Below, piece by piece: positions 2,613 through 6,012 of a stretch of 64,000 nt of DNA; positions within the stretch are counted from its first letter, which is position 1; every line of letters starts with the position of its first letter. This DNA comes from Fabrea salina (taxonomy: Eukaryota; Ciliophora; Heterotrichea; Heterotrichida; Fabreidae). A model generated the notes under the pieces. It worked only from the letters and a program-made list of their open reading frames with translations, was not told the origin of the DNA and did not search any database. A program made the translations under genes and the position numbers. Location of the stretch: assembly GCA_022984795.1 (NCBI GenBank), contig JALIHJ010000024.1, positions 124,001 through 188,000 of the forward strand, written 5' to 3'.

Positions 2613-3179
2613 TTACTTCTGTTTGCCAGACTCACGTTCAAGAACTTCAGGAGCAAACTTGATGAGGTACACAGTAGAGCGGCCTTCAGGGTGATTGCGG
2701 AAGTGGGCAGTGACTCTGCTAGGGAACCCTGCAGCGTTCAAAAGGCCTTCAAGGATTCCTGCCACAAAAGCCCCACAGTTGATGTGGGTAGCTCCCCTAG
2801 GCAAGTAAGCGAACTGATTACAGAGACTAGGTTCATTTTCTGTGATCATGTACTCTGCTTCGTCTTCTTCGGACTTTTCTATTTCTGTTGCAGTCTTGTT
2901 GAAGAGTGTACGCCACAAAGGCGTGTGTATAAAAGTCAAAATGCTAATTATACTGGTTTCTTTGCGAGAATACTTTTCTCGGAAACAAACCAGCTCCAAA
3001 AAGCGCCTTCCTAGTCTGTAGCCTAGTTCCTCAAGTTTCTTTTCGAGTTCTTGTGAGTCGTTTGAAGACTTAGAAAGCGTGTACTGCACTACTTCGCAAA
3101 ACAAAAAGTGAAACGCAGAAGCAGAGACTTCTTTGCGTGTTTTAAGTGACTTTTCGTAGAGTGAATTGGACCTTTTCAT
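2613..3179 (-). CDS. TRAPPC5: TRAPP complex subunit 5 (TRAPPC5/Trs31)
   Basis: The 188-residue protein matches the usual length of TRAPPC5, a core subunit of the TRAPP tethering complexes, which act as Rab1 exchange factors at the ER-Golgi boundary. The diagnostic C-terminal alpha/beta block is clear at residues 135-153 (CGAFVAGILEGLLNAAGFP), followed by SRVTAHF and a terminal YLIKF strand. The N-terminus SNSLYEKSL matches the family start. The start codon sits 24 bp from the divergent neighbour's ATG, so the two genes probably share a promoter. I see no missing parts. Confidence 0.93.
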   Translation of the reverse strand: MKRSNSLYEKSLKTRKEVSASAFHFLFCEVVQYTLSKSSNDSQELEKKLEELGYRLGRRFLELVCFREKYSRKETSIISILTFIHTPLWRTLFNKTATEIEKSEEDEAEYMITENEPSLCNQFAYLPRGATHINCGAFVAGILEGLLNAAGFPSRVTAHFRNHPEGRSTVYLIKFAPEVLERESGKQK

Positions 3180-3203: not shown

Positions 3204-3560
3204 ATGAAAAGCTTAAGGTCCAACTTGAGGAGAGTCAACTTAAACATAAGTCAGCTTGAAAAAGGCGAAGTCTGCCACGTAATGCCTAGGTCTGTAAGTC
3301 CGTTTGAAGAAGTCAGAAGTCCTCGAAACGAAGTAAGTAAACTCCAAAAACAAAATCAAGAACTCGTTTCTCAACTCCGAGAGTCCCAAGACGAAGTCTT
3401 CTTACTCAAGAAGCGAGTAGCTCAACTCGAAAAACAACTTAGAATCTCTAAAGCCAAAAACAAAGCCCAAGAAATAGACTCTGAAAAAGAAAACTACTGG
3501 GACGAAGCCTTCACTGGGTTTTACAAAGACAGAATCGGAAGGTATTTAAAACGATCTTAA
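3204..3560 (+). CDS. Small coiled-coil protein of unknown function
   Basis: I do not recognise this 118-residue protein. Residues about 45-90 form one Leu/Gln/Glu-rich coiled coil (VSKLQKQNQELVSQLRES), and the basic N-terminus is MKSLRSNLRR. The C-terminus carries ENYWDE followed by FTGFYKDRIGRYLKR; NYWDE also occurs in the IFT43 gene downstream, though a five-residue match may be chance. It is divergently paired with TRAPPC5 across 24 bp. A ciliary or scaffold role is possible but not shown. Confidence 0.7.
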   Translation: MKSLRSNLRRVNLNISQLEKGEVCHVMPRSVSPFEEVRSPRNEVSKLQKQNQELVSQLRESQDEVFLLKKRVAQLEKQLRISKAKNKAQEIDSEKENYWDEAFTGFYKDRIGRYLKRS

Positions 3561-3599
3561 ACTACGCACCCTTAAATAAATTTAAAACAAATTCAACAC

Positions 3600-3605
3600 T
3601 ATAAG
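3600..3605 (+). promoter_or_regulatory. TATA-like box upstream of the telomerase RNA candidate
   Basis: TATAAG lies about 20-28 bp before the proposed RNA start at 3624-3628. This is the place of the TATA box in Pol III type-3 promoters, which ciliate telomerase RNA and U6 genes are known to use. I did not identify a proximal sequence element with confidence. The spacing is seen; the use is inferred. Confidence 0.45.
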
Positions 3606-3662
3606 AAGCAACCTTGCTAATATGGTTGGGCGGGTGACGCGTCACTCCGGCTTAGCCGTAAT

Positions 3663-3674
3663 CACCCTAACACC
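3663..3674 (+). other. Putative telomerase template, 12 nt
   Basis: CACCCTAACACC is periodic with period 8 over exactly 12 nt; the bases on both sides break the period. That gives an 8-nt copying region plus a 4-nt alignment region, the usual logic of a telomerase template. On random-sequence arithmetic, a 12-nt match to any phase of an 8-nt repeat on either strand is expected about 0.06 times in 64 kb. Confidence 0.75.
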
Positions 3675-3803
3675 AGCAGTACTTGTAAGGTTCCTCACTC
3701 CGCTCCTCCAAAGGAGCTGAGAGTGTCGCCCGAGGAACTGACCGCCATAGAGGAGCTCATGCTCAGGTTCTACCGATCTCTGTGTCTACGGTCAGTTCTG
3801 CCC

Positions 3804-3807
3804 TTTT
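3804..3807 (+). terminator. T-run, likely Pol III terminator
   Basis: TTTT follows the 3' strand of the distal hairpin (ending 3798) by 5 nt. Runs of four or more T end Pol III transcripts, and ciliate telomerase RNAs end in U-runs. The next gene's ATG is 20 bp further on. Confidence 0.5.
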
Positions 3808-3827
3808 GCACTTTGAAACCTCTATAA

Positions 3828-4205
3828 ATGTCAGGTTGGGACAACCAAAGCACAGGATGGGGAGAACCTCCTTCAATGCAGCAGATCGAAACCACTAATC
3901 GTAACAGAAAGAACTATTGGGATGAAGGGGAAGTCCAGCACATCCCTACAATGCTTGCTGAAAACACTTTGGAGCCCTCTTCGGAGGTAGCTGCTCCTCC
4001 CACTGCTTACGCGGGAAAACAACTAGGAATTGACTCTTTGAACCAACAAGTGACTCTTCCATCACAGCCTGAAGAAGGAATTGACTTGTCCATACTGACT
4101 TCTGTAGTCAGACCTGCTGAATTGGTTTTTGAGCACGATGAAAACTGGAGTTACCAACAGTTGATTATTGAAGTTTCTAAACTTATAGCTAGTAATGACT
4201 TATAA
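3828..4205 (+). CDS. IFT43: Intraflagellar transport protein 43 (IFT43)
   Basis: The 125-residue protein has a disordered, Asn/Gln-rich N-terminus with RKNYWDEGE at 28-36 and an IFT43-like core. IPTMLAE (39-45) matches the IP-x-L segment of the family, and GIDLSILTSVVRP (84-96) followed by ENWSYQQLIIEVS matches its C-terminal signature. IFT43 binds IFT121 in the IFT-A complex for retrograde transport in cilia, expected in a heavily ciliated cell. It is shorter than the animal protein but has the conserved end. A LINE is inserted 15-30 bp past its stop codon without touching the frame. Confidence 0.85.
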   Translation: MSGWDNQSTGWGEPPSMQQIETTNRNRKNYWDEGEVQHIPTMLAENTLEPSSEVAAPPTAYAGKQLGIDSLNQQVTLPSQPEEGIDLSILTSVVRPAELVFEHDENWSYQQLIIEVSKLIASNDL

Positions 4206-4234: not shown

Positions 4235-4251
4235 TTATTTATTTATTTATT
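4235..4251 (-). repeat. LINE 3' tail, (AATA)n
   Basis: Read on the minus strand, the element ends in about four AATA/AAAT units. The first TAA of this tail supplies the stop codon of the element's open frame. Confidence 0.8.
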
Positions 4252-5797
4252 GGAATTGTTGTAAGCCGTCTAGGCCTCTGCTTCGTGTCTTGGGAAGTTT
4301 TTTGGTTGGGTTGTCATTTTCTTCTGCCGTTCTTTTCCTCTTGAGTTCCGTTCGTGTTTCTTCGTGTTTTGGGAGCGTCATTGTTCCGTTTTCTAGGCCT
4401 CTGCTTCGTGTCTTGGGTAGTTTTTTGGTTGGGTTGTCATTTTCTTCTGCCGTTCTTTTCCTCTTGAGTTCCGGTCGTGTTTCTTCGTGTATTGGGAGCG
4501 TCGTTGTTCCGTCTTCCTGCTTTGTTTCTTCGTGTAGAATCTTTCTGGTTTTAATGATTGTGTTTACGTAGTTCTTAATTTCTGTGTCTAGTTTTTGCTT
4601 TTGTTTCGTCGTGAGCTGGTTCCTTTCGTCTTCTAGTTTGTCCGACTCTAGTGTTAGGTGGTAGATGAGTGATTCCCTTGGTTTGAAGAGTTTTCTTGCG
4701 ATTTTCCTGAGTTTTTCCCTTGGAATGCTGTTTTTTGGGCAGTGTTCTAGGATGTGTTCGACTGTTTCCTCTCGTCTGCACCATGTGCAGTTGGGGTCTG
4801 GTTCCATGTGTCTGATGAAGCGTGTGCTTCTTGCGTCGCTATGTCCTGCTCTCCACCTGTGGATCGCCGCGATTTCGTCTAGCCTGTGGCTGTTGAATTG
4901 GACGTAGTCCTTCGCTTTGACCTCACCGTGGAATGAGCTGACGTTCAGGAAGTCTTCACATGTCTTCTTCTCTAGTGCATGTTTGATGTTTTTCTGTCTT
5001 CTGTATCTCCTTATTGCTTTTTCGAGTTCTTTGTTCCATTCTTCGGTGTTGCTTTCTGCGTCTATGCCATATTTTTCCTGTAGTTTGTTGGTTCGAGAGA
5101 CTATTGGTAAGTCTTCTTCTTTGGCTATTCTGAGTGCTTTGTGGTAGATTGAGTTCTTGTGGCTTTTAAGGATTTTTCTGTAGAAGTTTAATGTTCTTTT
5201 GTTAACTGTGTCTTTAATGGGAAGCCACCCGAGGTCTTCTAAGGTGGTCTCTATAGCTGATTGTTGTGGTACTCTCAGCACATACCTTGCTGCTTTCCTC
5301 TGGATTCTATTCAGTGCTTCTGCCGCCGTCTTGTTGACCTTGGACTTGTGCGCGGCTTCTTGAGCGTACGTTGCTACTTGGGTTATCATTGCGTTTGCTA
5401 TGAGTTTCTTTTGGGTGATTTTGATTGAGTGCAGTCTTCTGAGGATGCTGAGGGTGTGTTTAAGTGCTGCTTTGGTCTTCGTTATTCTTTCTTGCATGTG
5501 GTCTTTGTTGGTGCACCTCTTGTTGATTATGTAGCCCAAGTATTTTGCGTTGCTTGCTGTCTTGAGTTCTTTTCCTCGGTATTTGACTTCTGGGTTGTTT
5601 TTGGCGTTGATTAGGATTGTTTCTGTCTTCTGGGTGTTTATTTCTAGCTCGTACTTCTGTGCCCATTCTTCGACTGTTTGTAAGTGCTTGTTCATTTCCC
5701 TAGTCGTCTCAGTCACTAGTACTATGTCGTCTGCGTACATTAGGAGTCTGATTCTTGCTAGAGTTGATTTTGTCTTTAAAGTGTACCCTTGCATTTT
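4247..5797 (-). CDS. LINE reverse transcriptase, C-terminal remnant
   Basis: About 516 codons of the element remain open. The first recognisable block is the reverse transcriptase motif YADDIVLV, about 20 residues from the truncated end. It continues through the thumb (KTETILINAKN, AKYLGYIINKR) and the helical region IQRKAARYVLRVP with DLGWLPI. A CTWC...VEHILEHC zinc-knuckle-like motif follows, as in many LINE C-termini. The basic C-terminus contains a 41-residue tandem duplication. The frame also runs upstream through the target duplication to an ATG at 5827 in host DNA, so that ATG is not the element's own start. The motifs upstream of YADD are missing, so it cannot be autonomous. Confidence 0.88.
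   Translation of the reverse strand, partial: KMQGYTLKTKSTLARIRLLMYADDIVLVTETTREMNKHLQTVEEWAQKYELEINTQKTETILINAKNNPEVKYRGKELKTASNAKYLGYIINKRCTNKDHMQERITKTKAALKHTLSILRRLHSIKITQKKLIANAMITQVATYAQEAAHKSKVNKTAAEALNRIQRKAARYVLRVPQQSAIETTLEDLGWLPIKDTVNKRTLNFYRKILKSHKNSIYHKALRIAKEEDLPIVSRTNKLQEKYGIDAESNTEEWNKELEKAIRRYRRQKNIKHALEKKTCEDFLNVSSFHGEVKAKDYVQFNSHRLDEIAAIHRWRAGHSDARSTRFIRHMEPDPNCTWCRREETVEHILEHCPKNSIPREKLRKIARKLFKPRESLIYHLTLESDKLEDERNQLTTKQKQKLDTEIKNYVNTIIKTRKILHEETKQEDGTTTLPIHEETRPELKRKRTAEENDNPTKKLPKTRSRGLENGTMTLPKHEETRTELKRKRTAEENDNPTKKLPKTRSRGLDGLQQFQ
4270..4515 (-). repeat. 123-bp tandem duplication in the LINE C-terminus
   Basis: Two adjacent 123-bp units (4270-4392 and 4393-4515) encode two near-identical 41-residue units rich in Lys/Arg, each containing KRKRTAEENDNPTKKLP. 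The unit length is a multiple of three, so the frame is kept. A partly similar, more diverged segment precedes them. Confidence 0.85.
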
Positions 5798-5812
5798 ATT
5801 TAGCTCATAAAT
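5798..5812. repeat. Target-site duplication of the LINE, right copy
   Basis: Exact second copy of the 15-bp ATTTAGCTCATAAAT at 4220-4234, at the 5' (truncated) end of the element. Confidence 0.9.
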
Positions 5813-6012
5813 AATCATGAAGATCAAAGCTGGTTAAGGAACCCAAGAAAAGGTTGAAAAGAAGAGTAAGTAAAAGAGTAAATTGGGAAGTTTATAGATT
5901 AAAAAGGATAGACAGAAGAGTACCTGAAAGTACCAAAGCTGTGTGGAAAGGTATGTTCAAGCTTTAGATAAGGCTATATAACTGAATAACTCTGATCTGA
6001 AACTCAAGTTAG

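Follow-up and report, generated by a model that had tools for sequence, protein, structure and literature searches.

A Candidate Telomerase RNA Gene Under a Pol III-Type Promoter in a Heterotrich Ciliate Genome

We propose that a short locus at 3629–3807 (+) of the window (i.e., the whole 64-kb stretch of DNA analyzed here) is very probably the telomerase RNA (TER) gene of a heterotrich ciliate. This reading, which was first advanced in an original prediction made from the sequence alone, is now supported by the telomere repeat, a USE-TATA promoter, and a TERT gene, all found in the same genome (an assembly of 18.3 Mb in 103 contigs). All the elements named in that prediction are present base for base: TATAAG at 3600–3605, the 12-nt stretch CACCCTAACACC at 3663–3674, an 8-bp complement between 3626–3633 and 3726–3733 (TTGGGCGG/TCGCCCGA, including two G-U pairs), a hairpin CGGC-TTA-GCCG at 3648–3658 that is separated from the 12-nt stretch by TAAT (4 nt), a perfect 10-bp complement between 3735–3744 and 3789–3798 that starts one base past the enclosing 8-bp stem, and TTTT at 3804–3807. 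A search of the genome for a second copy returned only the locus itself. In the open-licence literature we found no description of a heterotrich TER, although an earlier report elsewhere is possible.

The original prediction was to be abandoned if the telomeres of this genome were not permutations of CCCTAACA, and they are. Three tandem units of CCCTAACA gave 5373 and 4658 matches on the two strands of the genome, compared to none for the reversed control, and among the contigs whose ends were inspected (C1, C24, C41, C73, and C85), (CCCTAACA)n arrays are present at both ends of C1 and at one end of each of the other four. Telomeres of Blepharisma stoltei are likewise permutations of CCCTAACA, according to the accessible part of PMC9942806; what that part reports is the telomeres, while a telomerase RNA candidate is reported here.

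The putative template CACCCUAACACC at 3663–3674 (+) corresponds to exactly 1.5 units of the telomere repeat, i.e., its 12 nt are complementary to more than one repeat of the genome's own telomere. Among 13 telomere-repeat matches of at least 9 nt on both strands of the window it is the longest, followed by two of 11 nt. A single CACCCTAACACC 12-mer is nevertheless weak evidence alone, as it is not rare genome-wide: isolated occurrences, in which the flanking bases break the repeat, were found at eight places compared to three for the reversed control (only this permutation was counted). Four of the eight are in contig-end arrays (C24, C41, C73, and C85) and three in frames without a stop that run for 528 to 1004 codons or more (C36, C6, and C12), and the candidate locus is the only one outside both.

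Upstream of the template is an upstream sequence element (USE), CCCTTAAATAAA, at 3569–3580 (+), and a TATA box, TATAAGAA, at 3600–3607 (+). The USE was spotted by comparing the candidate with the U6 gene, which was located by a family search and also carries CCCTTAAAYAAA in its upstream region; SRP and RNase P RNA provide independent confirmation. The 12-mer CCCTTAAAYAAA occurs at 22 sites in the genome (five for the reversed control), and in an Rfam search of all 22 loci at gathering thresholds, three of these sites directly precede an RNA gene, with a distance from USE to RNA start of 60 nt for SRP and U6 and 55 nt for U4. RNase P RNA, which was found separately, has the 8-nt core CCCTTAAA 59 nt before its start. 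In the candidate, CCCTTAAA at 3569 begins 31 nt upstream of TATAAG, and exactly the same distance separates the USE start from the TATA-like box in U6, SRP, and RNase P. Judged from its sequence, the candidate is thus equipped with a Pol III type-3 promoter, a USE and a TATA box at the spacing typical of this species, and the distances in SRP, U6, and RNase P place its predicted RNA start near 3629 (3628–3629). The combination of CCCTTAAA, 23 nt, and TWTWWRA occurs only once on both strands of the window, at the candidate.

The USE promoter rule is not universal in this genome, since the 110 nt preceding the Rfam start of RNase MRP RNA contain no CCCTTAAA; in its upstream region this gene (L047, G000:C70:57934-58133) differs from that of RNase P. 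U4 (L036, G000:C41:70407 region) was left out as a Pol III reference, because its 12-nt USE lies 5 nt nearer to the start than in U6 and SRP and because it contains an internal TTTT; it may be the USE spacing that determines which of Pol II and Pol III is used in this genome. The USE site at L043, on a contig (C103) that carries bacterial-type rRNA genes, does not fit as a promoter. On this contig, which is probably mitochondrial, a tRNA lies between the bacterial-type SSU and LSU rRNA genes.

In other lineages, telomerase RNAs were identified by searching for a USE and a template no more than 200 nt apart (PMC12133305). Among the USE sites compared in this genome, the two coincide only at the candidate. 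In the interval 12–272 nt from the start of the USE, the candidate has a telomere match of 12 nt, and none of the remaining 21 sites of the 12-mer has one longer than 7 nt. Similarly, CCCTTAAA-N23-TAT occurs at 19 sites in the genome (10 for the reversed control), and in the interval 40–300 nt from the start of the USE, the candidate has a 12-nt telomere match, compared to 8 nt or less for the remaining 18. Rfam recognizes an RNA at three of these 19 loci: SRP, RNase P, and a 5S gene, the last of which is situated behind its USE-N23-TAT site in the opposite direction. The fuller form TWTWWRA is present at four of the 19, three of them being SRP, RNase P, and the candidate. Two of the loci, L053 (G000:C7:291029) and L069 (G000:C93:27837), share an identical 34-base USE-TAT stretch as well as a downstream telomere match, and represent either a duplicated segment or a redundant contig; they were rejected as TER genes, as they are located within a 129-codon open stretch and as a template would need to be longer than their telomere match, which spans 8 nt and is 236 nt away from the USE on its downstream side. 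The exact patterns were also matched twice in the viral_contigs collection (L070 and L071), with no match in genome_contigs.

The first TTTT past the predicted start is at 3804–3807 (+), 5 nt past stem IV described below, which agrees with the original suggestion that the T-run at 3804 ends the RNA and gives a predicted product of about 179 nt (by itself weak evidence, as 174 nt free of TTTT follow 27–28% of the start points in the window). The region 3629–3802 has a GC content of 0.57 between AT-rich flanks (0.31 and 0.33), and its predicted fold is unusually stable, with energy z-scores of -3.73 for 3624–3806 and -3.80 for 3629–3806 and none of 200 shuffles as good in either case. The main helices of the lowest-energy fold are 3632–3640/3723–3731 (stem I, +), 3648–3651/3655–3658 (stem II), 3702–3707/3712–3717, and 3734–3744/3789–3799 followed by 3746–3752/3778–3784 (together stem-loop IV, 3734–3799, +), so that a computed stem encloses the template and is followed by a distal stem-loop. 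Tandem stems of this kind are rare in 5000 dinucleotide shuffles of 3629–3807: a 5′-end stem of at least 8 bp enclosing the template position was found in 550, a 3′ stem of at least 9 bp in 302, and both in tandem in four, by stem criteria chosen after the sequence had been seen.

The enclosing stem of the original prediction, 3626–3633/3726–3733, does exist in the sequence, but an RNA that starts near 3629 would lack the first three bases of this stem, and the fold prefers the longer and more stable 3632–3640/3723–3731 (-43.3 kcal/mol, compared to -33.1 kcal/mol with 3629–3633/3726–3730 and the other stems equal). Stem I is therefore better read as the latter in the modeled structure. The stem II hairpin (3648–3658, +; CGGC/GCCG with the loop UUA) is located just 5′ of the template, where it may serve as a template boundary element. 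A pseudoknot, which the original prediction implied, is possible but not established. Helix listing and crossing-pair enumeration of the stem III region (3689–3725, +) did reveal H-type options, but the best crossing pairs leave a third loop of only 2 nt and compete with the stable hairpin 3702–3707/3712–3717. In addition, 3684–3690 is paired with part of the template in the computed fold, and an 8-bp helix between 3689–3696 and 3732–3739, whose pairing was checked, would cross stem I, in competition with the basal part of stem IV. A rather unlikely variant of the TER reading would make use of these features: the RNA would lack a classical stem III pseudoknot and use 3689–3696/3732–3739 instead, and 3684–3690 would keep the template closed until TERT opens it. 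This variant would also place the TER on the heterotrich side of the deep ciliate split, departing from the textbook fold.

The candidate resembles known ciliate TERs in layout but does not match their Rfam model. No Rfam family matched at gathering thresholds over the 64-kb window, and at E-values up to 10 over 3560–3830, RF00025 was not listed; the four matches that were (two microRNA families, a viral pseudoknot, and an lncRNA region) are far below their cut-offs and were rejected. The check with a ciliate telomerase covariance model, proposed along with the original prediction, did not come out in its favor, as RF00025 does not detect the locus. A genome-wide search with the same model gave nothing at the candidate and two weak matches elsewhere (L017 and L018), the better of which (L017; 26.4 bits, E-value 0.36) was rejected as a TER since the stretch in it that resembles a template, CAACCCCAAAA, is not one for the telomere of this genome; the same search also gives matches in 6 of 14 control genomes. 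As the candidate does not reach the gathering threshold of RF00025 (52 bits), it is not filed in this Tetrahymena-type sequence family.

Despite the lack of a score, the candidate resembles RF00025 in size class and in the order of its parts: stem I, stem II, template, and stem III region, then the 3′ strand of stem I (3723–3731, +), stem IV, and a U-run. Counting from 3629 as position 1, stem I begins at nt 4 (nt 6 in the RF00025 consensus) and the template at nt 35 (nt 44 in the consensus). The candidate differs in being GC-rich, in having a pseudoknot that is only possible, in carrying GUAA before the template instead of the conserved GUCA, and in templating TTAGGGTG instead of the CAACCCCAA type. 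Its predicted 179 nt, ending in a T-run, is within the range of ciliate telomerase RNAs, which are under about 200 nt (PMC12133305). In layout, it is further similar to the Pol III type-3 TERs of plants and other Diaphoretickes described there, which also have a USE and a TATA box at fixed spacing, a terminator, and a template no more than 200 nt from the USE (PMC12133305).

A TERT is encoded in the same genome, which contains one TERT RNA-binding domain, in a 917-aa frame that also has TEN and reverse transcriptase domains. Its best match among solved structures is 6d6v_A (E-value 7.1e-47), which we take to be Tetrahymena telomerase. In the protein collection searched, this TERT has 12 relatives at 40–53% identity (P0002–P0013) and one at 99% (P0001), and DNA suited to a covariation test therefore exists elsewhere. 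P0001 comes from jgi and ena sources, with a longest contig of 91 kb, and an organism near-identical to this one may be present in public metagenomes. The genome also has three La-domain matches, two of them above the cut-off: one protein (L048) resembles LARP7 (E-value 9e-15) and, weakly, p65 (E-value 0.00076), and another (L049) resembles other La-related proteins.

Based on these features, we suggest the following model. Pol III would start near 3629, driven by the USE at 3569 and the TATA box 31 nt further, and stop at the TTTT at 3804–3807, releasing an RNA of about 179 nt that may fold into stem I as the enclosing helix, a small stem II 5′ of the template, the stem III region, and the long stem-loop IV. 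This RNA would be bound by the genome's TERT, whose gene is at another locus, and probably also by a La-family protein as a candidate partner. Copied in full from 3674 to 3663, the template would yield GGTG followed by TTAGGGTG. The template may be divided into an alignment region (3671–3674, +), with which a chromosome end in GGTG-3′ would pair, and a copied region (3663–3670, +), which TERT would copy from 3670 down to 3663, adding TTAGGGTG, until halted at C3663 by the stem II side. The extended end would again finish in GGTG and realign on 3671–3674, so that each round adds one 8-nt repeat and yields (TTAGGGTG)n, and native overhangs are expected to end in ...TTAGGGTG.

A Pol III-type promoter alone indicates no more than transcription by Pol III, chance copies of the isolated 12-mer are present in three long open frames, and no Rfam family matches at gathering; the locus could accordingly be some other lineage-specific Pol III non-coding RNA with a telomere-like stretch arising by chance. 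We consider this quite improbable, because promoter and template coincide at just one of the 22 and one of the 19 sites, the match is exactly 1.5 repeats and sits just 3′ of a hairpin, and, in line with the layout of RF00025, a long 3′ stem comes after the enclosing one. The locus might also be a copy that has decayed or fallen silent, the functional TER residing at another place with a different promoter or template permutation. This is very improbable given that the promoter, stems, and terminator are intact, that the genome yielded no second copy, and that RF00025 points to no credible gene elsewhere, even though the genome-wide count covered CACCCTAACACC and not the other permutations of the repeat, and USE-TTT sites such as that of U6 escape the USE-N23-TAT search unless they carry the 12-nt USE.

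Finally, the T-run stops 20 nt before the ATG at 3828, which would be in keeping with a segment of the leader of the IFT43-like gene that follows, or the 12-mer might be an interstitial telomere remnant. Either is barely credible: the Pol III-type promoter spacing and the terminator speak against both, and a telomere remnant would leave the tandem stems unexplained. The TER reading is therefore the one we prefer.

If true, a heterotrich TER would serve as an outgroup to other ciliate TERs and help to establish the age of the TER fold in ciliates. The sister group of the heterotrichs, the karyorelicts, includes Loxodes, in which neither telomeres nor telomerase could be detected in the study cited (PMC11441545). 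TERs might then be findable in Stentor and Blepharisma by a USE-plus-template search, and telomere addition during macronuclear development of heterotrichs would become directly testable. Besides, the USE with its 31-nt spacing rule offers a handle for other Pol III genes in this genome.

The candidate locus sits between two ATG frames, 3204–3560 (+) and 3828–4205 (+), the latter matching Pfam IFT43. Further upstream, the minus-strand frame 2613–3179 encodes a TRAPP component, for which a protein search gave 10 proteins; the nearest named one, from Blepharisma stoltei, is 57% identical, and two others are closer (99% and 60%). This match and the shared telomere repeat of Blepharisma are our grounds for placing the genome in the heterotrichs, whereas a WD40 protein search, judged on 120 of its 370 matches, was of no use for placement. 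In the 64-kb window, ARAGORN found neither tRNA nor tmRNA, and a count of GTA...TAG spacings gave no peak at 15 nt. Introns of this length are described for heterotrichs (PMC11441545), and the missing peak neither supports nor, alone, excludes a heterotrich. Beside the candidate, at 4247–5818 (-), is a 523-aa frame with a partial RVT_1 match, a weak zf-RVT match, and a near-repeated segment in its C-terminal part, which looks like a fragment of a non-LTR retroelement.
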